From Archangium violaceum (GTDB lineage Bacteria > Myxococcota > Myxococcia > Myxococcales > Myxococcaceae): a stretch of 64,000 nt of DNA. Below, in pieces: positions 24,285 through 52,575 of the stretch. Below the pieces are notes generated by a model. It did not search any database. It was not told the origin of the DNA and saw nothing but the letters and a program-made list of their open reading frames with translations. Every line of letters begins with the position of its first letter. Positions within the stretch are counted from its first letter, which is position 1. A program made the position numbers and the translations under genes. The stretch lies in NCBI RefSeq assembly GCF_016887565.1, contig NZ_CP069396.1, positions 3,313,001-3,377,000 on the forward strand, in the 5' to 3' direction.

Positions 24285-24296
24285 GGAAGTAAAGAG

Positions 24297-24330: not shown

Positions 24331-24339
24331 TTTCCGCTG

Positions 24340-24660: not shown

Positions 24661-24699
24661 GTCGGGGCATGGGCACCACGAGGTCTTCGGGTGTTGGTG

Positions 24700-31300: not shown

Positions 31301-31830
31301 CCCTCGATGAAGCCACCCCAGCGCGTGCCCACCTTGCCGGGCGCGAGGGGATCGGGATCGTAGAGCACGTCGGTATCCCACCGGTCAGGGGGCACCTCGG
31401 TGATCGCGTCTACCCCGGACTCCAGGAGTCTCCAGTAGCTGTCCAGGTCCGGCGCCCCGGGGAACCGGCAGGCCATCCCGACGATCGCGATGGGCTCGTT
31501 CTGCGTGGGACTGCGTTCGGCACGTTCGGCGCGTCCGGGCACAAAAGCCTCGAGATCGCTCGCCCCACCGGCCAGGTGACGCGCCAGCGCCTTTGGGGTC
31601 GGGTGTTGCCACACCAGGACGGGCGACAGGGGGCGCCCGAGCGCCTGCGCCAGGTCCGCGAGCATGCCTGTCGCGCCCTGCGAATCGAGACCATAACGAT
31701 TGAATCGTTCACGGACATCGATGGATCGCGGCTCGATGCGCAGCCGCTCCGCGAGAAGGGATGCGATCAAGGTGCGGAGGTCATCCTCCGTCAGCGCTGG
31801 CAGCCGCGGATGGGTCAGCTTGTTGGTCAT
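25312..31830 (-). CDS. Type I polyketide synthase, ACP-KS-AT-AT-DH-ACP-hydrolase
   Basis: 2172 residues. ACP1 is about 15-88 (Ser50 in GLDSQ). KS is 112-535 with the full triad C282 (TACSSA), H417 (EAHGTGT) and H457 (NIGHLE). AT1 is 630-915 (S720 in GQSMGE, H823). AT2, with its own KS-AT linker, is 1000-1370 (S1180 in GHSIGE, H1283 in HAPHS, malonyl-like). DH is 1455-1720 (H1490, D1656; the usual Gly of HxxxGxxxxP is Asp). ACP2 is 1780-1855 (S1814 in GVDSL). The alpha/beta hydrolase is 1910-2172 (S2010 in GWSLGG, D2121, H2149). No KR or ER is present. It stands alone between two IS91-derived repeats; ATG 31830 starts 3 bp from one of them and has no Shine-Dalgarno, so the true 5' end may be lost. 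Confidence 0.93.
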   Translation of the reverse strand: MTNKLTHPRLPALTEDDLRTLIASLLAERLRIEPRSIDVRERFNRYGLDSQGATGMLADLAQALGRPLSPVLVWQHPTPKALARHLAGGASDLEAFVPGRAERAERSPTQNEPIAIVGMACRFPGAPDLDSYWRLLESGVDAITEVPPDRWDTDVLYDPDPLAPGKVGTRWGGFIEGIDRFDPTFFGISPREATEMDPQQRLMLELSWEALEDAGVPPRSLKDSRTGVFFGAMWQDYARLSGSSLARLTQHSATGQDLSIIPARVSYTLGLRGPSVAINTACSSALVAVHYARQSLLLGEATLALAGGVSLMSGPESMVAMAKLGALAPDGRSKAFDARANGYGRGEGGGVVVLKLLSRALSDGDRIDGLVLGSAINNDGFSNGLTAPSPAAQELVLRDAYANAGVDPRDVQYVEAHGTGTVLGDPIEASALGAVLGAGRPADRPLLLGSVKTNIGHLETAAGIAGLIKTALALKNRTVPPNLHFEIPNPYIAFDALHLKIPTSREPWPERDGRALSGVSSFGFGGTNCHVVLEGARLESACLVPLASMDGERLRQLAARVRDLCLDGSRPLSLPELCAAAAPHAGEGDQRIAVTARTRDDLAARLDGLLQDRPLPGAVAGIARRGRLGPVFVFGGQGSQWRRMGADLLREPAFRASIERCDRVMRPHLGGSLLDALLSGDATWLEDIAWVQPAIFAVQVSLAALWRSWGVEPAAVVGQSMGEIAAATVAGCMSLEDAARIICVWSRLQKRTAGRGTMALVELSLKEARRTLLEREDKVSVAGSMSPSSVVISGDPATIDELLSELGRSGVYARRINVDVAAHCPQMDPLLPELRSALEGIRPRCAPVPFYSTVTGHRLEGSELDADYWCNNLREPVLFAETIERLTGSGHDVFLDVNPHPVLARAVEQCLAHAGSDRSPIVQPGLALPSMRREEPGRAVLLDSLGILYTRGQQVAWRQLYPAERPSGAAFPELWPSSEDGPTPGSSEQAARTEVPAALPLLVSGKTEAALRAQAERLRAHLEAHPDLGLADVACSLALTRTHFERRAVVVAKGRAALLEALGAIAQGSSAVNVVLDEAKAQGKLALLFTGQGSQHPGMGRALYDAFPIFRDALDIVCGHLDAQLERPLRPILFATEGSEDAALLHQTAFTQTALFALEVALFRLTESWGVKPDLLLGHSIGELVAAHVAGVLSLEDACTLVVARARLMQALPQGGAMVSLQASAAEVAPLLVGREAHVAIAALNGPLSTVVAGDEEAVIEVTRQVKALGRKTTRLRISHAPHSPRMDGMLNAFRHVVEGLTFHPPRIPIVSNITGKRASAEELGSPETWVHHVRHAVRFLEGVRTLEAEGVTTFLELGPHGVLCAMAHDCLSDEAQARALFLPALRNDRPEVETLTAALGGLHARGHELDWKAFFAPFGARRIELPTYAFQRERYWLDAPKAGSADVASAGLVSAEHPLLGAAVPFADADGLLFTGRLSLQSHPWLAGHGVFDTVLLPGTAFVELALVAAHRVGLDRIEELTLESPLVLPSKGAVHLQLSVGIPDEAFRRSVTLHARPENAPPNTPWTRHATGTLGATTESASFDLRAWPPAGATPLDLNGLYDRLAEAGLAYGHDFQGLCAAWKQGNDLFAEVHLSEEAAQQADHFGLHPALLDAALHALALDSLLLDAGELALPSAWVGVSLRATGASCLRVRLSRRNGEGTVSLAIADALGEPVASVDALRATPASKERLRSALASRPEPLYRTNQVTLPKASNPLLVRSRALTASHEEQNLDDPATVERLIRGIFRQVTLRDDAGIDSDRSLQSVGVDSLMYLQMLRRAEQTFGVTMSAQMALRPDASRQTLTLSTLTNLLLGIRQATLTRPSPDEVDDGAAASRKAEEEEPALSVERVERDVNITPVPGASVGSGTPLEAFMVTLSSGEIIDVLCAGTGAPLVLLPPIMASIPIWVFQIEELRRDFRVIVPNHPGYGRSTAPHGSLSPARIARRVAAVLDGLGVHEAVHIVGWSLGGMVAQEFSLALPHRVRSLALVNTTSRLEEEDSVRNMEDMMRRLLADLRRTTPEEAPSTLARRTMALEASQRDAGYERSFDYLAEVLRFDAADRIAGIKAPTLVVQGREDTLAVPRYGRHMEREIPRAQYHEFEHGGHYVPLHLPGAFNELLRSFLRRWSV

Positions 31831-31833
31831 TTC

Positions 31834-31875
31834 GAGGTGTTCGCCTGCGTGAGATGTGGATGCAGGCGGAGTATA
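31834..31875 (+). repeat. 42-bp IS91-derived direct repeat, at the PKS 5' end
   Basis: It encodes [13 protein letters not shown] on the plus strand, 37/42 identical to 25096-25137. It abuts the PKS start codon, so the PKS promoter must lie within or beyond it. Confidence 0.75.
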
Positions 31876-32028
31876 GTTGCCAGTCCTCCCATTCGCCCTC
31901 TGCGTACAGCCGAGGGCGGATGAGGCATCGAGCCGAGCCATGGTTCCGTCTCCCATGGGCCGACACCTTGGCTGTCGGGGCATTGGCGGCGCCATGACGT
32001 CGCACCACCCTCGGGGAGTCCTTGCCAT

Positions 32029-32340
32029 GTGAAGTGGCACAACCCGCCCTCGCGCTGGACCGCCAGCGAGGGACACCTCACCCTCGAGACGGGCGACCAG
32101 ACGGACTTCTGGCGCGAGACCCACTACGGCTTCATCCGCGACAGCGGGCACTTCTTCCACCAGGAGGTGGAGGGCGATTTCACCGCGACGATCCGGTTCT
32201 CGGGAGAGTACCGGGCGCTGTACGACCAGGCCGGGTTGATGGTCCGGTTGGACGAGCGCCACTGGATCAAGGCCGGCATCGAGTACACCGATGGAGTGCA
32301 ACACCTCAGCGTGGTGGTGACGCGAGGGTTCTCCGACTGA
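32029..32340 (+). pseudogene. DUF1349-family protein, N-terminal fragment
   Basis: From GTG 32029 it encodes KWHNPPSRWTASEGHLTLET, DFWRETHYGFIRDSGHFFHQ and ALYDQAGLMVRLDERHWIKA, the concanavalin-like fold of DUF1349 proteins. A TGA comes after FSD where the family normally continues about 80 residues, and downstream sequence does not restore it, so it is cut at a junction. The preceding 31876-32028 holds no gene. Confidence 0.6.
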
Positions 32341-32463
32341 TGGGCGAGCGCGGGGCGCGCCAGATTCAGCGCGCGACGAACCTCGCGGCGGCCGGCGGCG
32401 AGCTCAAGTAGCGCCGCGCCGCTTCTCCGGAGGGCCGTCCCCTCGCAGTCCCCGGAGCACGCC

Positions 32464-33102
32464 ATGACCAGCCCTCAGCCCCCGTCGCGCACCCTCACCG
32501 CCGCGCAGTCGGTCATCATCGAGCGCTTCAGCAGCTTCCTCGATGCGGAGCGCGCCCGGGCTGCCGACATCGAGGCCTTGCGCAACATCGTCGCCATGGG
32601 CTTGCGGCACTTCGTCCACCCGGACAACTCCGCCATCGCGTTCGAGTTGATGGCGCTCGCGGCCGAGGCCGTGGGCGAGGAGCTGACGCCCGCGGGCATC
32701 TGGGAGTCCGGGGCGCGAGGCGAGCTGTGGCTCCACCACGCCGTCGCCTTCCGCGCCGCCCTGGCGAACCCGGACGCGCCGGAGCCGACGAACCCGCGCC
32801 GCGCCGGGCACCTGGGCTTCACCGCCTACAACGACGAGCCCGGTCCCCACGGCCCGTGGAAGACGTTCAACGGCCGCGCCGTCCTCGGATGGGATGACCT
32901 CGGTGAGCCCACGCGGGCCCGGTGGGTGGCGGCGGGGCGAGCGGAGCGTGACAAAGCGCTCGAGATGGCGGCGTACCGGGCGAACCGCGCCCTCGTGGAC
33001 GCGGGCATCAAGGACACGGACGTGCGCGCCCTCGTCGCAGGCGCCATCCTCTCGGCGCTCTCGTCCGCGCAGGACTCGGCGTCCGCGAGCCGCAACGGCT
33101 GA
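32464..33102 (+). CDS. Hypothetical protein, possibly phage- or element-borne
   Basis: 212 residues from ATG 32464 (CGGAG 7 nt before). The sequence is soluble, helical and charged, with segments such as LRNIVAMGLRHFVHPDNSAI and WLHHAVAFRAALANPDAPEP. There is no signal peptide and no motif I recognise. It is followed after 42 bp by another gene with a good ribosome site (33145), so they were probably one operon; that partner has been cut by an IS91 end. Confidence 0.6.
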   Translation: MTSPQPPSRTLTAAQSVIIERFSSFLDAERARAADIEALRNIVAMGLRHFVHPDNSAIAFELMALAAEAVGEELTPAGIWESGARGELWLHHAVAFRAALANPDAPEPTNPRRAGHLGFTAYNDEPGPHGPWKTFNGRAVLGWDDLGEPTRARWVAAGRAERDKALEMAAYRANRALVDAGIKDTDVRALVAGAILSALSSAQDSASASRNG

Positions 33103-33144
33103 TGCGCCGCTTCTCCTGGGGGAACCCTCTTCCCAGGAGTGCCC

Positions 33145-33299
33145 ATGTCTCCCTCCAGCAGTGCCTCTTCGCTTCCCACGCGGTCGCTGTTCCTCGTCCA
33201 CGCCTTCGAGCAGATGGGGGCCACGACGTTGTGGGGAGCGAAGGGGAAGCGTGACCCCTCGACGGGTGAGCGCCTAATCCCTCGGACCCCGAGCACGTG
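33145..33299 (+). pseudogene. Hypothetical protein, N-terminal stub cut by IS91
   Basis: ATG 33145 has AGGAG 5 nt upstream. It encodes about 50 residues (SLFLVHAFEQMGATTLWGAK then GKRDPSTGERLIPRTPSTW) before the IS91 end GCGTATAGGC at 33300. Family unknown. Confidence 0.5.
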
Positions 33300-33777
33300 G
33301 CGTATAGGCAGGATAGAGGCCGTGTTGAGGGAGAGGGCTGGTGCAGAGGGGCCGAGGAGGGCCGCTGACGGGTGCCGGCCGAGCTGTGAGCCAGGCCGGA
33401 GCAAAAGCGGCGCAGCCCCTGGGGGTACACGCCGGCCGAGGCCGCCCACCCAGGAGGTGCGCGGTAGGGGCTCTTCTGGCTGGGGCGGCGTGAGCCTCAA
33501 CACCACGAGGCCTGGGGTGGCCCTCGCGCCGGGGCCAGGCGCGCACCTGCCGTGGGCAGGCCCAGGTGCTTCAGAATCGCGCGCACGCCTCCCGCCTCCT
33601 TCATGTACGCCAACACCCGCCGCCTGCCTCCACACCTCACGCAGGCGAATACGTCGAAGTCGAATGTCCTCCTGAGCACCGCCGCCCAGTCCACTCCCGA
33701 CGTCCTCTCCTTCATCGGCTCCTTGCTGGCCGCTGCCTCAGGCGCCACGCTCGCCCCCTCCTCTTCTGCTTGGGGGA
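33300..33777 (-). mobile_element. Short IS91-derived element (478 bp)
   Basis: It runs from the conserved terminus GCGTATAGGCAGGATAGAGG to the recurrent breakpoint CTTGGGGGA. It carries only the transposase C-terminus ([20 protein letters not shown] and on). It shares both ends with 52576-53057, so it looks like a unit and not a random fragment. It joins a truncated gene on each side. Confidence 0.75.
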
Positions 33778-34796
33778 GCCGAGCCGGTGAGGTTGAACGG
33801 CGACGAGTTCAAGGAGGCCGTGGCGAAGCGTGCCTGGGAGATTCGGCCCTCCGCTCGGCCCCAGGAAGCCGCCCGGAAGTTGTTCGAGGTCGAGGCGCGG
33901 AGTGGTTCGTACACGTACGAGACACGCAGCCGCCGCGTCACTCCGCTCGGGCCGGACGAACATCTGGAGGGGGCACCACCGGCGGCGGCGGTGGAGTTGA
34001 CGCGCGACTATCTGCGCTGGTGCGAGCGCACCGGCAGGCCCGGAGACTGTCTCCGCCTGCTGACGGAGAGCCCCATCGTCAACGGGGACGGCCGTTTCGC
34101 CCTGGCCCTGGCCCTTGCCAAGGGCGCCGTGCTCGACGAGATGCTGGAGGCGTTCAAGGACATGGCCGATCCACACGCCATGGTGGCGGCGGTTCTCTGG
34201 ACTTGGACCACGTACATGGTCCTCATCTCGATTCCCGACGTGACGGTCTCGAAGGGTCTCGCGGCGGTGATGACCGCCACCCTTATCTCCTACGTGGGCG
34301 TCGACACCTTCTGGGGCCTCGTCGTGGGCTTCAAGCGGCTGATGGACGAGGCGGATCGGGCCGCCACGTTCAACGAGCTGCGCGAGGCCGGGGAGCGGTA
34401 CGGCAAGATGATGGGCCGCAACGCGGCGCGTGCGTTCGCCATGCTGGCCATGGTGGCTCTCGGCAACACGGCGCCGGGGTTGGCGGCGAAGGTGCCGACG
34501 CTGCCCGGTGCGATGCAGGCGGCGGCGCAGGCGGAGACGCAGGTGGGTATCCGCCTCGCGGCAGCGGGGGAGGTGGAGACGGTTGCCGTGAGTGCCGAGA
34601 CCATCACCATCGCACTTGCTCCGGGCGCCGTGGCGATGTCGGCTCAGGGGTCGGGTGCCACGAGCGCTCCGCTCCCGGCTTCGAGAGCACCCTCAAGATC
34701 AATAATAGGTTCGGGGGGATTGCGAACCTGACCATTCGCTGGTTCAAGTACACGGACGGTCAAATCACCATCAACACCGCTTTCATTCCCCCATGA
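33778..34796 (+). pseudogene. SitA-type polymorphic toxin, 5'-truncated and toxin domain deleted
   Basis: The frame (RLNGDEFKEAVAKRAWEIRP, YLRWCERTGRPGDCLRLLTE, SKGLAAVMTATLISYVGVDT, FAMLAMVALGNTAPGLAAKV) matches the conserved delivery region of myxobacterial SitA5-like toxins, lipoproteins passed between sibling cells by TraA/TraB outer-membrane exchange. The lipoprotein signal is gone, replaced by the IS91 junction at 33777. After AMSAQGSGATSAPLP the frame shifts and stops at 34731. In the next frame only a C-terminal toxin tail survives (NRFGGIANLTIRWFKYTDGQ then ITINTAFIPP), whose stop overlaps the immunity ATG. The toxin is dead. Confidence 0.65.
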
Positions 34797-35227
34797 CGGA
34801 CCATCTCGAATATCTGGCGAAGCGAGTGCTGGAGACAGGAGGAGCAGAGACAGAGCGGGCCTTCCGCGATGCGCTCCGTCACATCTCCGACCCTGCTGTG
34901 CTCCGGGTGCTTGCAGGAAAGTTCTACGCTGAGCCCGAGGTATCGGTGCCCACCTATGAACGACTCCTGGAGCTGATGCCCAAGGACGTGCTCACACGGG
35001 TTGAACTCGGATTCATCTATTTCCTCATGGGAGAAGACGGCGAGGCGCGTCGGCAGCTCGGCATGGCCCAGGCGTTGGACCCGGAGCACGTGCAGGTTCT
35101 CACCTTGGCGGCAGCGTTGGCACGTGAGCCAGCCGAGAAGGTGCGGCTCTACCGCCGCATTCTCCAGAAAGAACCGCTGAACGAGATTGCACGCGGCAAG
35201 CTTCGTGAGATGGGGGAAACGCCGTAG
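34793..35227 (+). CDS. SitI-type immunity protein, TPR-like
   Basis: 144 residues, helical throughout, with TPR-like pairs (AEPEVSVPTYERLLELMPKD, VELGFIYFLMGEDGEARRQL, AAALAREPAEKVRLYRRILQ). The ATG overlaps the toxin stop (ATGA), the coupling expected of toxin/immunity pairs. The gene is intact while its toxin is not, so it is an orphan immunity gene that could still protect against a matching toxin from relatives. The assignment rests on position and fold type. Confidence 0.6.
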   Translation: MTDHLEYLAKRVLETGGAETERAFRDALRHISDPAVLRVLAGKFYAEPEVSVPTYERLLELMPKDVLTRVELGFIYFLMGEDGEARRQLGMAQALDPEHVQVLTLAAALAREPAEKVRLYRRILQKEPLNEIARGKLREMGETP

Positions 35228-35705
35228 TTCTTGGCCTGGAGGCCGTAATGGGGCAGACGGATTCCAAGAAGAAGCTCGGGCGCTTCGCTGCCGACTGCCG
35301 ACAATGAAGCACATGGAGGAGCAACCCAGGCCAAGAAGGCTGCGCGCCCGTTGCTTCTTCTTCTCCTCCTGCCTCGCCTCTTCCGGCCCTGACTCGGGAC
35401 CCGCTTGAGGGAGAACCTTCAGGCCCACCATCTGCGCCGCGCTCGGCATCACGCTCAGCGGTTGAGCGTCCCGTCACCCCGGCCCCGCTCCGCTCGGGAA
35501 CAGCTTGAGCCTGCCCCAGTAGACCGGACGATGGCCAGGAGGAAGAACCTACCTGGACCGGCACGGCAACACCCGTTGGCAACTGGAGCGGATACACAAC
35601 GTGAGGCCCTCGCCGAGCTGGTGGCCCGCTTCCTCGCCCACCTTCCTCATCACGCCCGCCCAGGATGCGACGCCGGGCCTCAAGCTCCTCCCTGCCAGTC
35701 CCGAG
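35228..35705. other. Gene-free stretch with an IS91 relic
   Basis: About 35336-35412 encodes, on the minus strand, LPQAGPESGPEEARQEEKKK, a diverged IS91 transposase piece ending at the recurrent CTTGAGGGA breakpoint. The rest (35413-35705) shows no recognisable gene on either strand. Confidence 0.45.
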
Positions 35706-36962
35706 TCAGAAGCAGGAGTCCTCCGGGCGCAGGTGCTCACGAGTGAGTGGCAGCCCGGAGGGGGCAACTCCCTGCTTCAACAGCAACGTCTGATAGACGC
35801 GAAGCCCGCTCCGCTGGAACTCCCGCGCGAAGCCAGCGAGGTAGGCCCGGAAGGCGCGGTAGCGGCGAGCCCCCACGAGCTGCTCCACACGCTCCGCGTT
35901 CCGCTCCAGCCGGTGCAGCCAATGGCGAAGGGTGTAGAGGTAATGATCACTCAGGCTCTCGACATCGCGGATATCGAACCCGGCGCTCTCCACGTTCGAC
36001 AGCATCGTCCCTAGTGAAGACAAACCGGCCTCCGGAAAGATGAATTCCTGGATGAACTCCCCATGGCCGCGGAAATTCGCCAATGGTGAGCAGACAATTC
36101 CCTGGTTGAGGAACAGCCCGCCTTGTCGAAGCAGGGACGAGACCCTCTGGAAGAAGTCCTGCTGGAATGACTCGCCGACATGCTCGACGACCCCGACCGC
36201 CGCGATCTTGTCAAACCGCCCTGGCCCATCAAGGTCACGGAAGTCCTGGACCTTGATGTGGCAACGATCCGAGACGCCATGCTCCGCCGCCAGCTGCCTG
36301 GCGCGAGCCGCCTGGAGCTCGCTCAGAGTCGTCCCAAGGACCTCCGCACCATAGTGCTTCGCAGCGTACACGGAAAACGCCCCCCAGCCACACCCCAGGT
36401 CGAGGAGCCGATCGCCGGGACGCAGGAGCAGCTTGCGGCAGATGTGGTCCAATTTTCGCACCTGAGCGCTCTCAAGACTCTCGTCTGGAGAGCTGAAGTA
36501 GGCGCAGGTGTAGAGCAACTTGTCATCGAGCCAGAGCCGCCAGAATTCGAGCGGCAGGTCATAGTGATAGTTCACGGCCTCGCGGGTGCGCTCCTTGGAG
36601 GCGGCAAGCTCCCGCAGCGGAAGCCTGGCACTGCCGTCCTGGAGTGGTCCTCGCGGTTGGACCAACAGGCGCTCGATGCAACCAATCGCCGCCTCCATGT
36701 TGCCCTCGACGTCCAGGTCACCTTCGACATACGCCTGTCCGAGTGCGCGCACGTCCCGTAGGCGCAGCGTCCGCGAAGCGGCTTGTGCATCCTTGAAGAC
36801 AAGCGTGAAATGGTGCTGCTGCCCGGGACTGGGCTCCAGGAGGGTATCCATCCCCAGTCTCACTGCGAAGTCCCGTGGGCCCCCTAGCGCAAGCAACGTA
36901 TCAAGGGCGGCGCGCAACTGGGCATCTCCATGAAACTCGGTCATGGACTGGGTGGAATCCAT
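35706..36962 (-). CDS. Cyclopropane-fatty-acid-synthase-family methyltransferase
   Basis: 418 residues. The family transfers a methylene or methyl from SAM onto unsaturated acyl chains of phospholipids or related lipids. The N-terminal domain (about 1-120) is CFA-type. AVNYHYDLPLEFWRLWLDDK then LLYTCAYF is the family hallmark. The SAM-binding loop is LLDLGCGWGAFSVYAAKHYG (186-205), followed by VGVVEHVGESF. AGGAGGAAGCG precedes ATG 36962. It is the last gene of the kinase-NACHT operon, 37 bp after the acyl-CoA dehydrogenase stop. The exact lipid substrate is unknown. Confidence 0.9.
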   Translation of the reverse strand: MDSTQSMTEFHGDAQLRAALDTLLALGGPRDFAVRLGMDTLLEPSPGQQHHFTLVFKDAQAASRTLRLRDVRALGQAYVEGDLDVEGNMEAAIGCIERLLVQPRGPLQDGSARLPLRELAASKERTREAVNYHYDLPLEFWRLWLDDKLLYTCAYFSSPDESLESAQVRKLDHICRKLLLRPGDRLLDLGCGWGAFSVYAAKHYGAEVLGTTLSELQAARARQLAAEHGVSDRCHIKVQDFRDLDGPGRFDKIAAVGVVEHVGESFQQDFFQRVSSLLRQGGLFLNQGIVCSPLANFRGHGEFIQEFIFPEAGLSSLGTMLSNVESAGFDIRDVESLSDHYLYTLRHWLHRLERNAERVEQLVGARRYRAFRAYLAGFAREFQRSGLRVYQTLLLKQGVAPSGLPLTREHLRPEDSCF

Positions 36963-36999
36963 CGCTTCCTCCTGGAATGTGGACCTTGCCGGGCGAGCA

Positions 37000-38169
37000 T
37001 CACGCCTGCCGGACCTGCCCGTAGCCTCGCGTCTTGGCGATAATCTCGTTCATGATCTCGCTCGTGCCACCCCCAATGGGAAGGACGCGTACGTCACGAT
37101 AGAGACGCTCCACGCGTGTCTCGCGCATGTAGCCCATCCCGCCAAAGAGCTGCACGGCTTCGTAACAAACATCCTGCGCCACCTGACTCGAGAAATTCTT
37201 TGCCTCGCAGACCTGCTCGATGACGCTGCCGCCTCTGCGAACATTATCGGCTACGACGTAGTTGAAGCACTTGGCGGCCCGCATCAGCGTGGCCATATGC
37301 GCCAGCTTGTGGCGAACCACCTGAGAGGCCAGCAATGGACCACCAAACGCGGAGCGCTCCTGCGCATAGCGCTCCGCATCGGTCAATGCCACCTCGGCGC
37401 TGGCATGTCCATAGGCAGCGAGGATCAGCCGCTCCATCTGGAAGTTGAGCATCGTGGCCTTGAAGCCGCTGCCCTCGTCGCCCAGCCGGTTTTCAACGGG
37501 GACCTGGCAGTCCTCGAAGGAGAGTGTGGCCGTGTCACTCGCTCGCCACCCCATCTTCTTGAGTGCGCGCGAGATGCTGAACCCCCGCGTGCCCTTCTCC
37601 ACGACGAAGAAAGTGAGTCCCCGGTGCGGCTCGTTGCTGGTGCGGGCCAGGACACAGACGAGATCGGCCCGACTCCCACCGGTGATGAAGGTCTTGGAGC
37701 CGTTGAGCACATAGTGCTCTCCATCTCGAACGGCCCTGGTACGAATCGCCGCGACGTCGGACCCGGCGTGTGGTTCGGTGATGGCGAGCGCGATGAGTTT
37801 CCGCCCCGCCAGCACGGGAGGGATGAAGCGCTGCTTCTGTGCCTCCGTGCCGAGATGGAGGATGGGGGGGAGCGCGATGTCCAGGCTGTTCAGGCTGGCG
37901 AGCACCCCCGTGCACCCGCCCCACATGAGTGCTTCGATCTGCAGCAGCACGTGGAAGACGTCACCTCCCGCACCACCATAGGCTGGGGGAAAGTTCACCC
38001 CGAGGAACCCCGCGGCACCCGCTTTCTCGTAGAGCTCACGAGGAAACCCCTCTTCCTCATCCCACTGAAACGCATGGGGCGCTATCTCCGCCTCCGCGAA
38101 CTTTCGGCAGTTCGCGTAGAACTGGCGATGGGTGTCTTCGAGAAAGGAGTCCAATAAAACGTCCGACAT
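37000..38169 (-). CDS. Acyl-CoA dehydrogenase
   Basis: 389 residues from ATG 38169 (GAGGCGG upstream). A flavoenzyme that makes the alpha,beta-double bond in acyl-CoA or acyl-carrier thioesters. Signatures are AITEPHAGSDVAAIRTRAVR, NGSKTFITGGSRADL, QLFGGMGYMRETRVERLYRD and GTSEIMNEII. The catalytic Glu of short-chain types (YEGTSE) is Gly here (IGGGTSE), but MERLILAAYG carries a Glu at the position used by isovaleryl- and long-chain enzymes, so activity is plausible. It sits 25 bp after the kinase-NACHT gene and 37 bp before the methyltransferase. Confidence 0.92.
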   Translation of the reverse strand: MSDVLLDSFLEDTHRQFYANCRKFAEAEIAPHAFQWDEEEGFPRELYEKAGAAGFLGVNFPPAYGGAGGDVFHVLLQIEALMWGGCTGVLASLNSLDIALPPILHLGTEAQKQRFIPPVLAGRKLIALAITEPHAGSDVAAIRTRAVRDGEHYVLNGSKTFITGGSRADLVCVLARTSNEPHRGLTFFVVEKGTRGFSISRALKKMGWRASDTATLSFEDCQVPVENRLGDEGSGFKATMLNFQMERLILAAYGHASAEVALTDAERYAQERSAFGGPLLASQVVRHKLAHMATLMRAAKCFNYVVADNVRRGGSVIEQVCEAKNFSSQVAQDVCYEAVQLFGGMGYMRETRVERLYRDVRVLPIGGGTSEIMNEIIAKTRGYGQVRQA

Positions 38170-38194
38170 GTCCGCCTCGTGCCTGGCTTTCCTC

Positions 38195-41100
38195 TCAATG
38201 TTCCCTGCCAGCGTGAAGCTGTTGGCAGGTGCGGTAGAGTTCCGCCACCTCTGGGACCAGCTCGTACCCCATGAGTACCCGGCCAATTTTTTCACCCGGG
38301 TCGAGGATTGCTGGTAGCTCCCTCGCTACGTCCACGATGTGAGCACCGTACCTGCGGGCCACTACCAGGCAATACAGATAGTGGACCACCGAGATCGGCC
38401 GGTGCGGATCCTCGAGCGCTATATACTGGGCTTGCAGGAACGCGGCTTGAATGGAACGGTGCTCGGGAAGGAGCCGTGCGCCCTCCTCCGTCTGCGTACA
38501 CATCATCAGCAGGGCCTCCCGCTGAGCGTCCTCTTGCATACCCAGCCGGGGCCAGGGGACGTTGGGGGGACGTGTCCCGAATCGCTGAGCATAGGCCTTC
38601 GCGTAACACCAGACGATGCTCGCGAGCACCGGACTGACCGCGACCCCAGGCTTCGGGGAGAGGTAGGTGTCGAAGACGGGCAGCAACTGCATGCGCAGAT
38701 CTTGAGCCGACGAGTCGTCATCGCGTAACGCGCGGTAGCCGAGTCCGTTCAGGGCAATGCATCGGGCTACAGGTGTCCATTCGTCGAGCGAGTTGACGAG
38801 GAGCTCGATGGCGGGGCCGTCCATCGGGACGCGAGAGCTGGTCATCAGTGCACAGAAATTGGCCGTGATCAGGTGGGAGCGGGTCTCCTTCGCCTGCTGG
38901 AGTACCTTCCGCACCAGCTCTCTCTGGACCTGCTTGCCTTCCCCACAGAGCAGCTCGCCCGCGGTCTTGCACATCCGCGGCGTGTAGCCGATGTGCCGCA
39001 GCTCGTTTACGAACCCGGTACTGATGCACTGCGCGAGGTAGCGCGCGGCGAGGAAGTCTTGCCACTCGCGATGCATAAACCTGGCCCGATCGTGCCCGGT
39101 GGGGATGAAGACGCTGCGGCTGAACAACGCCCGGCAGGTCCTCTCCTGGAGGACCAGCCGGAAGCCCTGGAGCTGCACGGACAGGGATTCGTTGGACGTA
39201 CTGCGGATGTACTCGCTCCACCGCTGGCAAACGCGCTGCGCCTCATCCCTCAGTGCGCCAATGGACATTTCGCCATGGAGCCCCATATAGAAGATGGAGC
39301 CCACCAGGGTGAGAGCATCCAGCCACTGCTCGACATCGGTGAGTTGATAGCCGTCGCCGGGCAGCTCGTTGAGATGGCTCTTCTCGATGATGGCCAGCAG
39401 AACCTGCCGTATGATCTCCGCCTGGGTCGGTGTCGAGCGTTCGTCGACGAGCCGGGACGCGCGCTGCCCGAGCCACGCCAGAACGAGAGGGGTCAGGAGC
39501 AGTTTTCGCGCGCCTGGATTCTGGATGTGCTTGAGCACGCTCCCCACGCCGGGAAAGCGCTCGCAGGCTTGTTCGACGGTGAGCGGAAGGATCTCCAGGA
39601 TGTGGTCTGTATCACTGGCAAGCGCACGCAGCCCAGGCTGGCTGCTACGGACGCCCAGGACGAAAGACAGCCCCGCATTGTCCGCGAACTCGCGGGACAG
39701 CCAGTGGAGCATCTCCCGGATGTCCGAGATACCAAGGGCCTGGTTGTTGGCGAGGAATTCGTCGACCCCGTCGAACAGGAGGGCCGTGGGAAGCGTGGCG
39801 AGCCGCCGCTCCAGCCACTCGGGTCCGACCGCTCCCGGGAAGGTCAGCTGGTTGCTCACCCATTCGCACCATCGCTGGCTCAGAACGTTGAACAAGAGCT
39901 GCCCCCGCTTCACCGAATCCACCGCGAGGATGGTACGGATCTCCTCGGGACTCAGGCTCTCCTGTTGCATCGGAAGGATGAGCGGCAGGATGTGGCTTGC
40001 CTTCAAGTCTTGTAGGAACTCGAGTGCCAGCCGGCGTCCCACCGCTCTGAAGGTGATCGACTTGCCAACGCCCGCATTTCCGGTCACCACGATTCGGGGA
40101 GGCACGCTTGCTCGTGTCCGGATGAGCTTCAACAACCGCTCGCACACCTCCTGTTGTGTTCCGGAGATGGCGTAGTCGACGGTGGGCGGCGTGCCGTCCC
40201 GGGTGTCTCGTCCCCTCTCCGTCTCCATCTCCCCGATGAGCGTCTGGATGTGTACCGCGCGATCCAGGTCGAAGCATCGAGCAATGACCTCCGATGCCAC
40301 CACCAGATCCGATTGCGCCATATAGGCGGGAAAGCTCACCGTATTGCAGATGGCATCCAGCAGGCTCTCCATCGGCGTCAAGGGTCGGACGTCGCTCTCG
40401 GACAACCCACTGGGAGGCCGTCTCCGCAAGTGCTCCTGCAGGTTGAGCACCTCGAGAGTGGGCCAAGGCAGCCGTGCCTGCTCCATCGCCTGGGCCCACT
40501 GCGTGTACTCCGTTTCGAGCACCCGCAGGTACCTGCGCCGCGCGGTGGCGCCAGGCGAGGGCACCGCCGATGGAGCGCCAGGGCCAGCCGGCTCCCTGGA
40601 GTTGGGTTCCGCCACGTCGACGAGCTGCCGTGCCCAGGATGAAACGAGCTTGCGCAAGTCGATGGGGCCTCCGTCCACACGTAATGCCTCCAGCAACCCA
40701 GCACAGTCGCGCCGGAGCATCGTCTTCGTCACGATGCAGCCCAGACCCTTGGTGATGAAGAGGAGGTTCACGCCGTGAGGAAACGCGGTCCGAAGCGTGT
40801 CGCGCAACTGGTCCGCTGCCGTCTCGATGTCCCGGCGCCGCGCAGCGCGCAACGCGGAGCGCACGAAGAGAATGTCCGTCTCGACTCCCAACCGGCGGAG
40901 CAACAACTCTGGCAGTTGGCTCCAATCATCCGCCTCGGAAGCGGCCAGCATGAATACAATGGCGAACCGGGAAATCTGGACGGCCCCCGGTGAAGGCTGT
41001 GCATGGTGGTAGAGGAGAGATCCATCTCCCGAGGAGGACCAGAATGGCTGCTGTGCCAGGGCGCCAGGATCGGACTCCATCCCCTGGACCTGCGGGGTTA

Positions 41101-42220
41101 CGAACGCGGGAGTCGCGGACACTCGGGAGACCTCGAGGCGGCCCGAGAACGGACGCTCGCCATCGGAACGCATCCGCCGCAGGAGCTTCTCGAGCTGGAA
41201 TGCGAGTTCGTCTGCCGTCTGGTATCGCTTGCTCCGGTCCTTGCTCATGGAACGGAGCACCACCTGGGAGAGGCTGGCCGGCAGGTCTGGACGGGAGATG
41301 CTCAACTGGGGGGACGGCGCGTCGGAGAGGACCTGATCCCGGACGGAGGCGACATCCGAGCTGGAGAAAGGAAGCCGCCCCGCCAGCATCTGGTACAGGA
41401 TGACGCCCAGGCTCCATATGTCGGTACGCGCATCCACCGGCTCTCCCCGCCACTGCTCGGGAGCCATATAGACTGCTGTTCCCGCGATTGGCAGAACAGG
41501 CGGCCCGACGCTCCGCCCTCTGTCCTGCGGAACGTGTGAGCTCCCAGAAGGGGCTTGGGCCAGGAGGGCCAGACCAAAGTCGAGAATCTTCACCGGCTCA
41601 TGGTCGGGCAGGAAGATGTTCTGGGGCTTGAGGTCGCGGTGGAACACCCCCTGCTGGTGAGCGTGCACCAGCCCTTTTGCCACCTGTAACGCGATGTCGA
41701 GCGCGTCCGTTGCCGGGAGCTGCCGCTTCCGCCGTGCGTTCAGGAGCTCCCAGAGCGAATGGCCCTGAAGGTACTCCATGACGATGAAGGGCGGGTCGTG
41801 TGAGTCGTCGAACTCGAAGATCTGAACGATGTTGCCGTGCCTCAGACGAGCAATGGCCCGGGCTTCGTGATGAAAGAGCGCCTTGAGCTCTTGTGAGGAC
41901 AGGCCGCCGAAAGGCACGAAGAACTTGATCGCCACGTCACGGAAGAGCTTCGAGTCCCTTGCGCGGAAGACCCTTCCCATCCCTCCAGCGCCGATCTCCT
42001 CCAGCAGTTCGAACTTACCACCGAGACCCACTCGCGCTGGCAGCTTCTCATGGACAGGGGGCGGTTGTACTCCGGTTGCCGGCGATGCGACGGCCTTGAG
42101 CAAGGAATCCTCGATGCTGGAGGACACATCGCGCTCGTCCAAGCCCCTCACCTTGATGGGAATGCCCTCGGTCGAAGGAGACTCACCGACGGGCTCCCGC
42201 TCCTCATACGGATCCGGCAT
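38195..42220 (-). CDS. Ser/Thr protein kinase fused to a NACHT/STAND ATPase
   Basis: 1341 residues. The Hanks-type kinase (about 70-345) has every key motif: GAGGMG (77-82), K99 in VAIKF, HRDLKPQN (194-201), DFG (214-216) and MAPEQ. Residues 415-500 resemble a Ser-hydrolase core, but the nucleophile position reads FITKGLGCIV, so it is degenerate. The NACHT-type NTPase has P-loop GNAGVGKS (714-721) and Walker B LLFDGVDEF (814-822), and a long alpha-helical C-terminus follows. Such tripartite STAND proteins act as sensors or switches in signalling, cell death and phage defence. ATG 42220 has AGGGAG 7 nt before; ATG 42253 or TTG 42256 are alternatives. It is the first gene of a three-gene operon. 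Confidence 0.9.
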   Translation of the reverse strand: MPDPYEEREPVGESPSTEGIPIKVRGLDERDVSSSIEDSLLKAVASPATGVQPPPVHEKLPARVGLGGKFELLEEIGAGGMGRVFRARDSKLFRDVAIKFFVPFGGLSSQELKALFHHEARAIARLRHGNIVQIFEFDDSHDPPFIVMEYLQGHSLWELLNARRKRQLPATDALDIALQVAKGLVHAHQQGVFHRDLKPQNIFLPDHEPVKILDFGLALLAQAPSGSSHVPQDRGRSVGPPVLPIAGTAVYMAPEQWRGEPVDARTDIWSLGVILYQMLAGRLPFSSSDVASVRDQVLSDAPSPQLSISRPDLPASLSQVVLRSMSKDRSKRYQTADELAFQLEKLLRRMRSDGERPFSGRLEVSRVSATPAFVTPQVQGMESDPGALAQQPFWSSSGDGSLLYHHAQPSPGAVQISRFAIVFMLAASEADDWSQLPELLLRRLGVETDILFVRSALRAARRRDIETAADQLRDTLRTAFPHGVNLLFITKGLGCIVTKTMLRRDCAGLLEALRVDGGPIDLRKLVSSWARQLVDVAEPNSREPAGPGAPSAVPSPGATARRRYLRVLETEYTQWAQAMEQARLPWPTLEVLNLQEHLRRRPPSGLSESDVRPLTPMESLLDAICNTVSFPAYMAQSDLVVASEVIARCFDLDRAVHIQTLIGEMETERGRDTRDGTPPTVDYAISGTQQEVCERLLKLIRTRASVPPRIVVTGNAGVGKSITFRAVGRRLALEFLQDLKASHILPLILPMQQESLSPEEIRTILAVDSVKRGQLLFNVLSQRWCEWVSNQLTFPGAVGPEWLERRLATLPTALLFDGVDEFLANNQALGISDIREMLHWLSREFADNAGLSFVLGVRSSQPGLRALASDTDHILEILPLTVEQACERFPGVGSVLKHIQNPGARKLLLTPLVLAWLGQRASRLVDERSTPTQAEIIRQVLLAIIEKSHLNELPGDGYQLTDVEQWLDALTLVGSIFYMGLHGEMSIGALRDEAQRVCQRWSEYIRSTSNESLSVQLQGFRLVLQERTCRALFSRSVFIPTGHDRARFMHREWQDFLAARYLAQCISTGFVNELRHIGYTPRMCKTAGELLCGEGKQVQRELVRKVLQQAKETRSHLITANFCALMTSSRVPMDGPAIELLVNSLDEWTPVARCIALNGLGYRALRDDDSSAQDLRMQLLPVFDTYLSPKPGVAVSPVLASIVWCYAKAYAQRFGTRPPNVPWPRLGMQEDAQREALLMMCTQTEEGARLLPEHRSIQAAFLQAQYIALEDPHRPISVVHYLYCLVVARRYGAHIVDVARELPAILDPGEKIGRVLMGYELVPEVAELYRTCQQLHAGREH

Positions 42221-42615
42221 GACCGGGCTCCCTGTGGTTGGCCGGAAATTCATCAAAGTGGCCCGCCCAAACGCCTGCTTGTCGATTCAACGCCCCCTTC
42301 AGGAAAACTTGGGGTTCGTGCCACGCAGCGCGCAACCCATGCAGGAAGAAGGGCAGCCATGCGACTGGCATGCCGCCTCTCCCAGCGTCACACTCTTGAT
42401 GCGAGCACCCACCTGATGCCCCTGGTCTCCTGGTGCAGCGTCCATCGTCTCCCCTCTACGAGAGAGATGAACGAAGGACACCTTGTGATGGGCGGAGGGC
42501 GCGGGAATGCAGCCCCAGCGGAGGGGCAAGCCGGGAGGCCTGGATGAAATCCAGCGTCCAGGCATCTCGGGTTCTTCGAGGGACCCACCCAAGGGCCAGG
42601 CGGCCTTTCAAGGGT

Positions 42616-42653
42616 CAGGAAACCGCCGCTCTATCCAACTGAGCTACGGAACC
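42616..42653 (-). pseudogene. tRNA 5'-half remnant (probably tRNA-Arg)
   Basis: On the minus strand GGTTCCGTAGCTCAGTTGGA then TAGAGCGGCGGTTTCCTGAC gives an acceptor strand, a proper D arm and the first side of an anticodon arm with CCT in the loop. The T arm and complementary acceptor are absent, so it is not a functional tRNA. Confidence 0.55.
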
Positions 42654-42704
42654 GCGAGTGGGACGTGGTTTGTAGCAGGCACCCTGGCTCGCACCGTGAG
42701 CAGC

Positions 42705-43304
42705 TCAGGGAGTGAAGAGGAACCGCGAGGACTGCTTCACCCAGGCCCGTCGCGTCTCGAGCGAACCGAAGTCGAGCCGGATGAACGGATCGAACAGCCT
42801 CGGCATCATCGAGAGCAGCGACAGCGAGGACCAGAGCTGGGTCAACGCCAGCCGCAGCCCGCTCTCCGACAGGTGAGGTGTGACCGGGGCGAGCCGCGAG
42901 GCCAGCTCCCCAAGGAACGTGTTGAGGCGCTGGATGGCGGCGCCGTCGTAGCGCTGATGCACGAGCGCTTCGTGGAAGTGCGCATGCGCGATGCGCGGGT
43001 AGCGCGTCGTGTTGCTCACGATGTCCTCGAGCAGGGTCTCGAACGCCTCGCGAATGCCGAGCCCCTCGGCCCGGAGGCGGTCGAAATCCGCGAGGACGTT
43101 CCCGAACGCCTCCTCCAGCGTCCGCTCGAGCGCCTGCGCCAGCAGCTTCTCCTTACTCCGGAAGTAGTAGCTGATCGCCGCGCTGTTCACCTGCGCCTCG
43201 CGGGCGATCTCCCGGATGCCGGTGGCGTCCAGCCCGTCCCGCCCGATGCAGGTGATGGTCGCCGCGAGGATGCGCTCCCGGGTCTCCTGCTCCTTGCTAC
43301 CCAT
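42705..43304 (-). CDS. TetR-family transcriptional repressor
   Basis: 199 residues from ATG 43304. The N-terminal HTH is TRERILAATITCIGRDGLDA, TGIREIAREAQVNSAAISYY and FRSKEKLLAQAL, a textbook TetR head. The C-terminal ligand domain is helical. It is divergent from the hydrolase/outer-membrane gene pair with a 106-bp gap that holds a four-box repeat (43361-43408), almost certainly its operator. It would repress the pair, and perhaps itself, until an unknown ligand binds. Confidence 0.9.
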   Translation of the reverse strand: MGSKEQETRERILAATITCIGRDGLDATGIREIAREAQVNSAAISYYFRSKEKLLAQALERTLEEAFGNVLADFDRLRAEGLGIREAFETLLEDIVSNTTRYPRIAHAHFHEALVHQRYDGAAIQRLNTFLGELASRLAPVTPHLSESGLRLALTQLWSSLSLLSMMPRLFDPFIRLDFGSLETRRAWVKQSSRFLFTP

Positions 43305-43360
43305 CCCTTCAACCCCTTGAAATAACACGTGTTCACGCCGTGCATTTGACACCACGGCCC

Positions 43361-43408
43361 GATTCAATCTATCGATTCAATCAACCGATTGAATCCGGAG
43401 ATTGAATC
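43361..43408. promoter_or_regulatory. Four-box palindromic operator for the TetR regulator
   Basis: The 9-mers GATTCAATC (43361), GATTCAATC (43374), GATTGAATC (43387) and GATTGAATC (43400) are spaced exactly 13 bp apart with 4-bp spacers. The first two are inverted relative to the last two, so the whole 48 bp is a symmetric array. It ends 2 bp before the hydrolase ATG. Confidence 0.8.
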
Positions 43409-43410
43409 CT

Positions 43411-44772
43411 ATGACTCACCCTGGTGGCAACAGTAGCGCAGGAAGGCTCACCCGACGAAGCGTGCTGGTGGGAGCGGGGTTGTTCGCGGGAGGAGCCGCG
43501 GCGGCGGTGGGCACGCGGAGGGCGCTGGAGCCAGCCTCGACGGACGTCATCGGCATCAACCCGCGAAGCGACGCCTGGTACGACCTGCGCATGTCCGGAG
43601 ACGGGCTGATGGACAACCAGCTGCTGTGGTTCCTGGGCCACGCCGCGCACGGGCAGAGCGACGTGGGCGACGTGCTGGAGACGGCCCAACGCATCCAGCC
43701 CGGCGACGAGCGGAGCTGGTTCGAGGCGTGGCTCCAGACGGCGCGGCGGGTCCACGGCGTCGCCAGCACCGCCGAGTCGAAGGGCCACGCGCTGAGCGCG
43801 GGCCAGGCCTACGCGCGCGCCGCGAACTACTACCGAGCGGCGACGATGCACTACACCAACACGGCGGATCCGCGGCTGCTCGAGGTGACGCACAACGCCG
43901 TCACCACGTTCGAGAAGTCGAACGCGTTGCTCGGCTATCTGGCGCAGCCGCTCGACATCCCCTACGAGGGCACCACCCTCCCCGCCTACTTCCTCCGCTC
44001 GCCGTACGCGAAGCCGAGCGCCCCCATCCTCCTGCTCCACCAGGGCCTGCATGCCTGGCCGGAGGAGACGAAATGGGTCTGGGACGGCGCGCACAAGCGG
44101 GGCTACCACGTGCTCCTCTTCCACGGGCCGGGCCAGGGACGGGCGCTGCGCGAGAAGCGGTTGAGCTTCCGGCCCGATTGGGAGAAGGCGGTCAGCCCGG
44201 TGGTGGACGCGGCCGAGCGCATCAGCGGCGTGGACCCGCGCCGCATCCTGCTGATGGGTCTGTCGTTCGGAGGCGCGCTGGCCCCCCGGGCGGCTGCTTT
44301 CGAGCCGCGCATCGCCCTGTGCATCGCCAATCCGGGCGTCCTGAGCTGGTGGGAGTCCACGAGCGGGCACTTCAACCGCTTCCTCCCGGGCTCGCTCTCC
44401 CTGCTGAAGTCGCACCCGGAGCGGTTCGATCAGGCGATCCTCGGGCTGGCGGAGCGCTGGCCCACCGCGAAGTACTGGCTGCGCGACGTGTTCTGGAAGC
44501 ATGGAGCCCGCACGCCCTCCGAGCTCTTCCGCAAGCTGGAGGAGTTCAACAATGAGTCCGTCGTCGACCGCATCCGCTGCCCGGTGCTCATCATGGAGGG
44601 GGAGGCGGAGGACGCGTCGCCCGGCCAGTCCCAGAAGCTCTACGACGCGCTGCGCGGGCCCAAGCACCTGATGACCTTCACCCGGGACGAGGCCGCGCCC
44701 CTCCACTGCCAGGCAGCATCCACGGCACTGGCGGAGCAGCGGCTGTTCGACTGGCTCGACGAGAACGTGTGA
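43411..44772 (+). CDS. Alpha/beta hydrolase with Tat signal (FrsA/DUF1100-like)
   Basis: 453 residues from ATG 43411 (GGAG 10 nt before). The N-terminus is a twin-arginine signal (RLTRRSVLVGAGLFAGGAAA), so the folded enzyme is probably exported. The helical lid domain (about 70-190) is followed by a hydrolase core with nucleophile motif LLMGLSFGGALAPRAAAFEP, an acidic residue in LIMEGEAEDASP and a His in RDEAAPLHCQAAS. The layout resembles 2,6-dihydropseudooxynicotine-hydrolase/FrsA-type enzymes. It is cotranscribed with the following outer-membrane gene (7-bp gap) and controlled by the adjacent TetR. Confidence 0.85.
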   Translation: MTHPGGNSSAGRLTRRSVLVGAGLFAGGAAAAVGTRRALEPASTDVIGINPRSDAWYDLRMSGDGLMDNQLLWFLGHAAHGQSDVGDVLETAQRIQPGDERSWFEAWLQTARRVHGVASTAESKGHALSAGQAYARAANYYRAATMHYTNTADPRLLEVTHNAVTTFEKSNALLGYLAQPLDIPYEGTTLPAYFLRSPYAKPSAPILLLHQGLHAWPEETKWVWDGAHKRGYHVLLFHGPGQGRALREKRLSFRPDWEKAVSPVVDAAERISGVDPRRILLMGLSFGGALAPRAAAFEPRIALCIANPGVLSWWESTSGHFNRFLPGSLSLLKSHPERFDQAILGLAERWPTAKYWLRDVFWKHGARTPSELFRKLEEFNNESVVDRIRCPVLIMEGEAEDASPGQSQKLYDALRGPKHLMTFTRDEAAPLHCQAASTALAEQRLFDWLDENV

Positions 44773-44779
44773 GACCGAG

Positions 44780-45844
44780 ATGACCTCCCTGACCCTTCTC
44801 TCGGCCACCCTCGGCATCGTCCTCGCCACGGCTCCGCAAGAGGAGCGCGGACAGTTCAGCGTGGTCCCCTTCGTCCTGCCCGCGTACCAGCCGGAGACGA
44901 GCTTCCTGCTCGGCGGCGCGGCCTCGTTCGTGTACCAGCCCCCGGTGGCCAGCGGCCGCCGGGAGTCCCAGGTGCTGCTGAGCGCCGCCGCGAGCGTGCG
45001 CGGGCAGTTCACGCTGCTGTTGCAACCGGACGTGTACTTCCTGGACGACCGGCTCAACCTGACGGCCACCGCCAGTGTGGCGCGGTTTCCGGACCGCTTC
45101 TTCGGCATGGGCGCGAACACGCGGGCCGAGGACGTGGAGGAGTTCACGCCCATCTTCCTCGAGCTCGAGCTGAGCCCGAAGTGGCGTGTCGCGCCCCGGC
45201 TGTACCTCGGCCCCACGCTGCGTCACCAGTATGTGCGCATCACCCAGATGGAGGAGGACGGCGCCCTGCGCACCATGACGGGCGCCCATGGAGGGGGAAC
45301 GCTCCAGCTCGGCCTCATGGCGCTCTATGACTCGCGAGACAACACCCTGAACCCCACGACGGGATTCCTGATGCGGCTCAACCTGCGCAGGGCCAGCGCG
45401 GACTGGGGCTCGGACTACACGTTCGACCTGCTCCGGTTGGACGCCCGGCGGTACATCACACTCCCATGGGGCCAGCGGCACGTGCTCGCGATGCAGGGCC
45501 TGGTGGAGTTGCGCCGCGGCGAGCCACCCTTCTACGACACGGGGCGGCTCGGGGGCATGGAGCTGGGCAGGGGGTACCTGGAGGGGCGCTTCCGCGAGCG
45601 CCAGCACCTCGCCGCACAGGTGGAGTACCGCGCGCCCCTCTTCTGGCGGCTGGGCGCAGTGGCCTTCGCCTCCGCGGCGACGGTGGCCCGGAGCCTGGGG
45701 GGCCCCGAGACCTGGGAGCTCAAGCCCGCGGGGGGCGTGGGACTGAGGCTCGCGCCCCTCGCCGACGTGCCGGTGAACATCCGGCTCGACGTGGCCTACG
45801 GCACGGAGCTGGGCTTCTACCTGAACGTGGGCGAGGCCTTCTGA
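44780..45844 (+). CDS. Omp85/BamA-type outer-membrane beta-barrel protein
   Basis: 354 residues. A signal peptide is followed by alternating amphipathic strands and C-terminal surface-antigen motifs (GLMALYDSRDNTLNPTTGFL, LDARRYITLPWGQRHVLAMQ, DTGRLGGMELGRGYLEGRF then RERQHLAAQVEYRAPLFWRL). This is the barrel half of Omp85/patatin-associated proteins, without POTRA domains. The start follows the hydrolase stop by 7 bp. With a Tat-exported hydrolase in the same operon it may form an export or envelope function. Confidence 0.8.
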   Translation: MTSLTLLSATLGIVLATAPQEERGQFSVVPFVLPAYQPETSFLLGGAASFVYQPPVASGRRESQVLLSAAASVRGQFTLLLQPDVYFLDDRLNLTATASVARFPDRFFGMGANTRAEDVEEFTPIFLELELSPKWRVAPRLYLGPTLRHQYVRITQMEEDGALRTMTGAHGGGTLQLGLMALYDSRDNTLNPTTGFLMRLNLRRASADWGSDYTFDLLRLDARRYITLPWGQRHVLAMQGLVELRRGEPPFYDTGRLGGMELGRGYLEGRFRERQHLAAQVEYRAPLFWRLGAVAFASAATVARSLGGPETWELKPAGGVGLRLAPLADVPVNIRLDVAYGTELGFYLNVGEAF

Positions 45845-45865
45845 GGCACATGTCCAGGCGCCGGT

Positions 45866-45904
45866 GCGTATAGGCAGGATAGAGGCCGTGTTGAGGGGGA
45901 GGGC
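45866..45904 (-). mobile_element. IS91 terminus scar (39 bp)
   Basis: GCGTATAGGCAGGATAGAGG and the next 19 bp of the IS91 terminus are present, then similarity stops. Only the element tip is left. Confidence 0.75.
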
Positions 45905-46091
45905 AATCGTCAGAGAGTCCGTGCTGCAGGAGCTTGGACCGTCCGCAACCCATGAGTCACTTGCGGCCATCCGAGCGCAGGCCGCCATGCAGCCGCCGAA
46001 GTTCCGGTCTTGTGTGGCCTGTGGACATCGGATTGGCACCTTGACGTCACCGACTTGCGAGAGCTGCGGCTCCCGAGCGAGAAACGGATAG
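45905..46091 (+). pseudogene. Zinc-ribbon protein, C-terminal fragment
   Basis: Downstream of the scar the frame reads SVLQELGPSATHESLAAIRA, QAAMQPPKFRSCVACGHRIG and TLTSPTCESCG, then stops. Two CxxC pairs form a plausible zinc ribbon. No native start remains; family not recognised. Confidence 0.4.
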
Positions 46092-46150
46092 GGGCCCTGA
46101 TGAGGCCTATGCCTAAGGGACCCTGAAACCCTGGATGCCAGGAGGTGGCC

Positions 46151-51799: not shown

Positions 51800-52575
51800 T
51801 CAACCCAGCAGCTTGAACGTTTCGCGAGCAATCACCAGCCGCTGCACCTCGCTGGTGCCCTCGTAGATGGTCTGCACGCGGGCGTCGCGGAAGTACCGCT
51901 CGACGGGGAACTCGTCGATGTAGCCGTAGCCGCCGTGCAGCAGCTCCGCCGCCTCCAACTGCGTCTTCATGTCCGCCATCATGAAGCGCGGGCCCTGGAA
52001 GTCGCCGATGGACTGACCGAAGGCCTTGCGGTCCTTCGAGTACGCCACCGCCGCGTCCAGCGCCGCCCGGCCCACGCCGCACGCCTGCGAGGCGATGCCG
52101 ATGCGGCCGCCGTCCAGCGCCGTCATCGCTAGCCGGAAGCCCTGCCCCTCCTGGCCCAGGAGGTTCTCCGCCGGAATCACGCAGTCCTCGAACGTCAGCG
52201 ACACCGTGTTCGAGGCGCGCAGCCCCATCTTGTCCTCGTGCTTCCCGATGATGAGGCCCTTCGTCCCGCCCTCCACGATGAAGCAGGACAGGCCCTTGTT
52301 GCCCGTCGGGGACGTGCGCGCCCACACCACCATGACGCCGGCGTACGCGCCGGACGTAATCCACTGCTTGCTGCCGTTGAGGACGTACGTGTCGCCGCGC
52401 TTCACCGCCGAGGTGAGCATCGCGCCCGGGTCCGAGCCCGCGTGCGGCTCGGACAGCGCGAAGGAGCCGGCAATGGCCTCACCGGACGTCAGCCGCGTGA
52501 CGAACTTCTCGCGCTGCGCGTCCGTGCCGAAGGCGTGGATGAGCTCCGCGCACATGTTCGTCACGGCCATGTGGG
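51800..52575 (-). pseudogene. Acyl-CoA dehydrogenase, 5'-truncated with internal deletion
   Basis: It begins at the IS91 terminus (52575) inside MCAELIHAFGTDAQREKFVT and continues FALSEPHAGSDPGAMLTSAV, SKQWITSGAYAGVMVVWART and IYEGTSEVQRLVIARE (catalytic Glu of the short-chain type present). The first 100 or so residues are gone. Between LEAAEL and LHGGYGY about 45 residues expected in the C-terminal helical domain are missing in frame. It cannot fold normally. Confidence 0.8.

Follow-up and report, generated by a model that had tools for sequence, protein, structure and literature searches.

An Archangium violaceum locus encodes a Ser/Thr kinase fused to a STAND ATPase directly ahead of two lipid-modifying enzymes, which raises the question of whether the three proteins work together or are merely transcribed together. 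We examined this locus within a window of 64,000 nucleotides, following up a preliminary description that had proposed a new system in which a switch protein controls the desaturation and methylation of acyl chains.

The three genes run leftward at 42220-38195, 38169-37000 and 36962-35706. They encode, in order, a kinase-NACHT protein of 1341 amino acids (with an alternative TTG start at 42256), an acyl-CoA dehydrogenase of the long-chain/isovaleryl type (389 amino acids) and a SAM methyltransferase of the CFA family (418 amino acids). The first frame stops at 38195 and gene 2 starts with the ATG at 38169; the second stops at 37000, ahead of the ATG at 36962. The gaps are therefore 25 and 37 nt, exactly as first described. 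The good ribosome sites attributed to all three genes held for the third, which has AGGAGG 6 nt before ATG 36962, whereas those of the first two are moderate (GGGAG before ATG 42220 and GAGG before the second ATG). The 1341-codon frame is about three times the longest simulated run and far beyond chance: in 200 segments simulated as first-order Markov copies, the longest open run averaged 281 codons and never exceeded 460. A scan of the intergenic gaps for terminator-like or promoter-like sites found none between the three genes, and the only two terminator-like matches lie within gene 1, below the number in shuffles. GC3 is 0.76, 0.77 and 0.78-0.79 in the three genes, as opposed to 0.92-0.94 in the genes on their right (TetR, hydrolase and Omp85), and the dehydrogenase and methyltransferase genes are the closest of the operon pairs in codon usage. 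Same-strand genes with very short gaps are normally operonic, and from the spacing, strand and composition we infer that the three genes are co-transcribed, in keeping with the single transcription unit proposed earlier. The operon may in fact begin with a 48-codon frame upstream of the kinase gene (42299-42445, minus strand) that has a strong ribosome site and four Cys spaced CX4CX3CX2C; a homologue search with its product gave nothing convincing. An Rfam search of 30000-48000 returned no match.

The protein encoded by gene 1 consists of a kinase domain (residues 70-334), a middle region (374-690), a NACHT domain (about 690-1100) and a helical C-terminus (1100-1341). The kinase domain matches Pfam Pkinase at E 2e-47 and is of the Hanks Ser/Thr type, having the VAIK Lys, HRDLKPQN with the HRD Asp, DFG and APE all in place. 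The NACHT match is borderline by score, at E 3e-5 for the whole protein and 6e-6 for the segment alone, with 24-27 bits (26.5 at the closest) against a Pfam cut-off of 26.7. It is clear by motif: Walker A reads GNAGVGKS and Walker B LLFDGVDEF, and the hallmark helix that follows the ATPase is FMHREWQDFLAARYL (F.H...Q.FLAA type). On these features gene 1 can be assigned to the NACHT-clade STAND ATPases. The motifs of both domains are intact and bear out the initial view of a Ser/Thr kinase fused to a STAND ATPase. Residues 374-690 and 1100-1341 match no Pfam or PADLOC family, and PADLOC gave no match to the middle, NACHT and C-terminal parts except SspF at E 0.07. A single-sequence AlphaFold2 model of residues 374-1341 had a mean pLDDT of 41 and was not used. 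An alpha/beta-hydrolase, as precedes some STAND ATPases, was considered at 430-520 on a faint likeness of LLFITKGLGCIVTK to the typical FVGHSLGGLVVK, and was rejected: Pfam was empty there and the nucleophile Ser would be replaced by Gly. This 968-residue orphan region, middle and C-terminus included, is the part of the protein most deserving of a structure.

The kinase module of gene 1 and its N-terminal extension are 37-41% identical over about 340 amino acids to kinase-cyclase-AAA-TPR proteins of the same genus (for example at loci L117 and L128), which likewise combine this homologous kinase module with a P-loop switch and end in a repeat-like region. The similarity stops after the kinase module. 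Those proteins have their own adenylate-cyclase-like segment, an AAA-type ATPase and TPR-like repeats, whereas gene 1 has a NACHT domain whose Walker B is DGVDE, and its middle and C-terminus are unrelated to theirs. Because homology is confined to the kinase module, gene 1 is best read as a kinase module of local descent fused to a NACHT switch.

Relatives of the remainder were sought in genome sets that represent each species by a single genome and cover roughly half of the species in GTDB. A protein search with residues 374-1341 came back empty for 96 family genomes, 195 Myxococcota genomes, plasmids and phages. Pattern scans covered 84,980 species genomes and also viral contigs; they detect close relatives only, and they found no kinase-NACHT relative. 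Among 40 loci with NACHT hits taken from relatives, 25 have large proteins carrying a kinase domain (kinase-NTPase fusions); these were rejected as relatives of gene 1, with similarity ending after the kinase. None of the 40 loci had a dehydrogenase or CFA-type relative in flanks of up to about 8 kb. Two other candidates were set aside: an apparent paralogue in the same genome at 3564406 (34%), which is a P-loop protein in a run resembling cobalamin-biosynthesis genes, and an isolated, weak C-terminal match of 75 amino acids in G183. The preliminary description had offered the neighbours of homologues as the means of refuting the system; since the non-kinase part has no homologue in the 195 Myxococcota genomes, that comparison cannot be passed.

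The second gene belongs to the LCAD/IVD-type acyl-CoA dehydrogenases, with Pfam Acyl-CoA_dh_N, M and 1 all far above cut-off and the catalytic Glu in helix G, where FQMERL aligns to FQAERL of PDB 3r7k. It carries GGGT where medium- and short-chain enzymes carry YEGT. Its best PDB relatives are 3r7k and 3oib, and it has all three domains and the Glu position of the long-chain/isovaleryl dehydrogenases (3r7k, 3oib, 8w0t), but no relative found exceeds 53% identity to it. The nearest family relative (53%) lies within a tandem of dehydrogenases in G053, and the nearest relatives as a group are found in tandem-dehydrogenase or catabolic settings. Elsewhere in the ssrA island described below, a second acyl-CoA dehydrogenase gene (51800-52915, minus strand) has its N-terminus replaced by repeat-derived sequence and its C-terminal domain partly missing, and is probably a pseudogene.

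The third gene matches CMAS at E 4e-80, far above cut-off, with the SAM motif present. It resembles known CFA synthases (PDB 5z9o, 7qos, 6bqc) and a plasmid-borne CFA subfamily in its full-length match, SAM motif and active-site Cys, Glu and Tyr, retained as C153, E260 and Y341; it differs in Q287, which replaces the bicarbonate-ligand His of most relatives. The same Gln is found in two relatives of 42-43% identity (L078 and L079), which makes Q287 a trait of a subgroup and not a sign of decay. Thus the statement that both enzymes have all key motifs was right for the dehydrogenase domains and Glu and for C153, E260 and Y341, and slightly overstated for Q287. The nearest methyltransferase relatives (43% identity) lie in unrelated contexts. 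On plasmids, with incomplete gene tables that make these contexts a guide only, relatives adjoin genes for phosphoketolase, acetate kinase, type II GAPDH, transaldolase/transketolase, a general stress protein or desaturases, and a kinase-NACHT neighbour was never seen among them. Within the family, 1 of 29 loci with a methyltransferase relative has an adjoining dehydrogenase (G045), which is of a different subfamily. At that locus (L065, 2417-7491), the CFA-type methyltransferase gene overlaps an AidB-like acyl-CoA dehydrogenase gene, and an acetate kinase-like gene comes next; an Acidovorax plasmid (L184) likewise carries acetate kinase together with CFA relatives.

The long-chain acyl-CoA dehydrogenase family oxidises C2-C3 of acyl-CoA thioesters to trans-2-enoyl-CoA, and CFA-type enzymes modify phospholipids at cis double bonds in mid-chain. 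Gene 2 encodes an acyl-CoA enzyme and not a phospholipid or membrane desaturase, so that its reaction and that of gene 3 do not belong to a single pathway: the enzymes catalyse non-consecutive steps, and to speak of desaturation and methylation of acyl chains was chemically loose. A described pairing that comes close is the BfaA/BfaB operon of mycobacteria, which makes 10-methylstearate and likewise couples a CFA-like methyltransferase with a flavoenzyme (PMC5660069). BfaA, however, is an FAD-binding oxidoreductase that reduces a methylene intermediate and is not an acyl-CoA dehydrogenase, and that operon lacks a kinase-NACHT gene (PMC5660069).

The operon lies in mobile DNA. An ssrA (tmRNA) gene is present at 3857-4217 (plus strand, 3' end 4188-4217), and att-like copies of its 3' end, 24-29 nt long, lie at 24257-24283 and 63256-63285 on the same strand, the two sharing further flanking sequence. 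The three ssrA 3' ends point to a tandem pair of ssrA islands, about 20 and 39 kb long, and the copies at 24257 and 63256 place the operon inside the second, as the description of an ssrA-integrated accessory region had it. A frame at 24077-24757 (minus strand) spans the att-like repeat and, with motifs RHRRGHDLRRT...THTP...Y, reads like a C-terminal relic of a tyrosine recombinase.

Within the island, the segment from 35288 to 42713 is private to this genome in the genus: against five sister genomes it gave no close DNA match, only paralogue matches of 66-69%, kinase fragments and a tRNA piece. To its left is a block (33300-35287) with many copies across the genus at 82-94% identity, in which a lipoprotein-like frame presumably resembles the myxobacterial SitA-type polymorphic toxins. 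To its right, a block with the TetR regulator, hydrolase and Omp85-like genes (42705-45844, conserved from 42714 on) is 82% identical in sister genome G003, at a different chromosomal position and without the operon. The right border of the unique segment carries a truncated tRNA-Arg(CCT) gene (42617-42684, minus strand), represented by its 5' half and roughly 30 bp of upstream sequence; it points into the operon, and an intact copy is present at G000:C1:5848700-5848768. The half gene could be a recombination scar and, with its upstream DNA, is a possible source of a promoter for the operon. The private segment and a GC3 apart from that of the right-hand genes fit joint acquisition, and the tight spacing together with this composition suggests that the three genes arrived or ameliorated together. 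The operon is horizontally acquired and made of known parts, in a combination found once. No independent genome among those searched has the same set, and relatives' neighbours differ, which leaves the designation of a new system unsupported. Tabulation of the two downstream families did recover relatives (53% and 43%), but their settings differ and none has the kinase-NACHT gene.

A polyketide synthase gene lies 3.5 kb downstream on the same strand (25312-32172, minus), with the Pfam order ACP-KS-AT-AT-DH-ACP-hydrolase-like. Its codon usage is close to that of the operon genes, and its tandem acyltransferase matches, dehydratase and hydrolase/thioesterase-like end would suit a lipid/polyketide biosynthetic cluster to which the operon once belonged and from which it was split by a later insertion. 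That history is very improbable. The DNA at 25311-31830 is 98.3% identical in G003, at another location with repeats on its borders and with none of the three operon genes nearby, which marks the synthase as a separate, mobile passenger and largely refutes the cluster.

Two readings of the operon remain in close contention. We tentatively favour, as the most likely role of this acquired and co-transcribed operon of an NLR-like kinase and two lipid enzymes, a stress- or damage-responsive unit for lipid adjustment. In such a unit the C-terminal region, the middle domain or both would sense a ligand or disturbance, and the NACHT domain would exchange nucleotide and oligomerise. The clustered N-terminal kinases would then trans-phosphorylate themselves and a target, which might be either enzyme or a shared or other regulator, and the dehydrogenase and CFA-type methyltransferase would alter the acyl-chain pool and membrane lipids. 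The 25/37-bp spacing, shared GC3, private segment, intact kinase and NACHT motifs and same-genus kinase homology argue for this reading, as does the frequent occurrence of plasmid methyltransferase relatives in stress or central-metabolism cassettes. Against it stand the single instance, the differing neighbours of relatives, the non-consecutive reactions and an insertion-rich mosaic of a kind that often unites unrelated genes. Its weakest step is control of the enzymes by the kinase, for which co-location is the sole pointer; functional coupling is plausible but unproven, and co-transcription without coupling is just as probable. An orphan kinase-NACHT gene of signalling or defence would in that case have landed upstream of two ordinary lipid-metabolism genes in a recombination-prone island; the enzymes would serve stress tolerance or metabolism in general, and the kinase would have another target. 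The mosaic itself (the repeat block, the synthase copied elsewhere in G003 and the separately conserved TetR/hydrolase/Omp85 block) speaks for this second reading, and the tandem or catabolic settings of dehydrogenase relatives, the variable cassettes of methyltransferase relatives and the failure to find a second trio agree with it. The very tight spacing and a shared composition unlike that of the right-hand neighbours do not.

An anti-phage role is unlikely. On that reading the C-terminus would sense a phage protein, NACHT oligomerisation would follow, and infection would abort through a change in the membrane made by the kinase, either alone or together with the lipid enzymes. Gene 1 shares with bNACHT, Avs, EruA and HyoA a tripartite plan of N-terminal effector-type domain, central NACHT and variable C-terminus, and this kinase-STAND architecture lies within an accessory island; it differs in that the effector is an active-looking Ser/Thr kinase and similarity is found in the NACHT core only. 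In multicellular bacteria, Ser/Thr kinases occur among the effectors of STAND conflict systems (PMC7159879, PMC8195603), and the papers searched describe both Ser/Thr kinases and NACHT ATPases in the conflict systems of such bacteria (PMC7159879, PMC8195603, PMC10907252). The PADLOC models PD-T4-6 and MAD6 match the kinase domain, and EruA and HyoA match weakly over the conserved F.H...Q.FLAA stretch. These PADLOC and NCBIfam matches run through generic domains, however, and are far below curated cut-offs (MAD6 167.8 against 460 bits, EruA 21.9 against 1000, HyoA 20.8 against 1200), so that gene 1 reaches the curated score of none of the known antiphage NACHT families. Nor does the locus belong to MADS (methylation-associated defence), which requires the full mad gene set, with kinase and methyltransferase above their curated scores; the mad2 match covers just 121 residues of the SAM fold in the CFA enzyme. 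The defence-library matches come through generic kinase and methyltransferase folds. Recognisable defence genes were not seen beside the operon, the literature searched gave no link between a CFA-type enzyme and an NLR effector, and soluble long-chain acyl-CoA dehydrogenases are not known to act as killing effectors. No described system with this gene set was found in the literature and libraries searched, as had been supposed.

The more specific proposal, that an NLR-like receptor with a Ser/Thr kinase output switches membrane acyl-chain chemistry through its two co-operonic enzymes, with lipid remodelling as the effector arm, is quite unlikely. Were the coupling true, a STAND receptor would act through lipid change and not by cutting DNA, NAD or proteins, and in a social bacterium kinase signalling would be tied to the composition of the membrane. 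As found, the locus is an instance of genus-private myxobacterial islands assembling new kinase-NTPase architectures beside metabolic genes.
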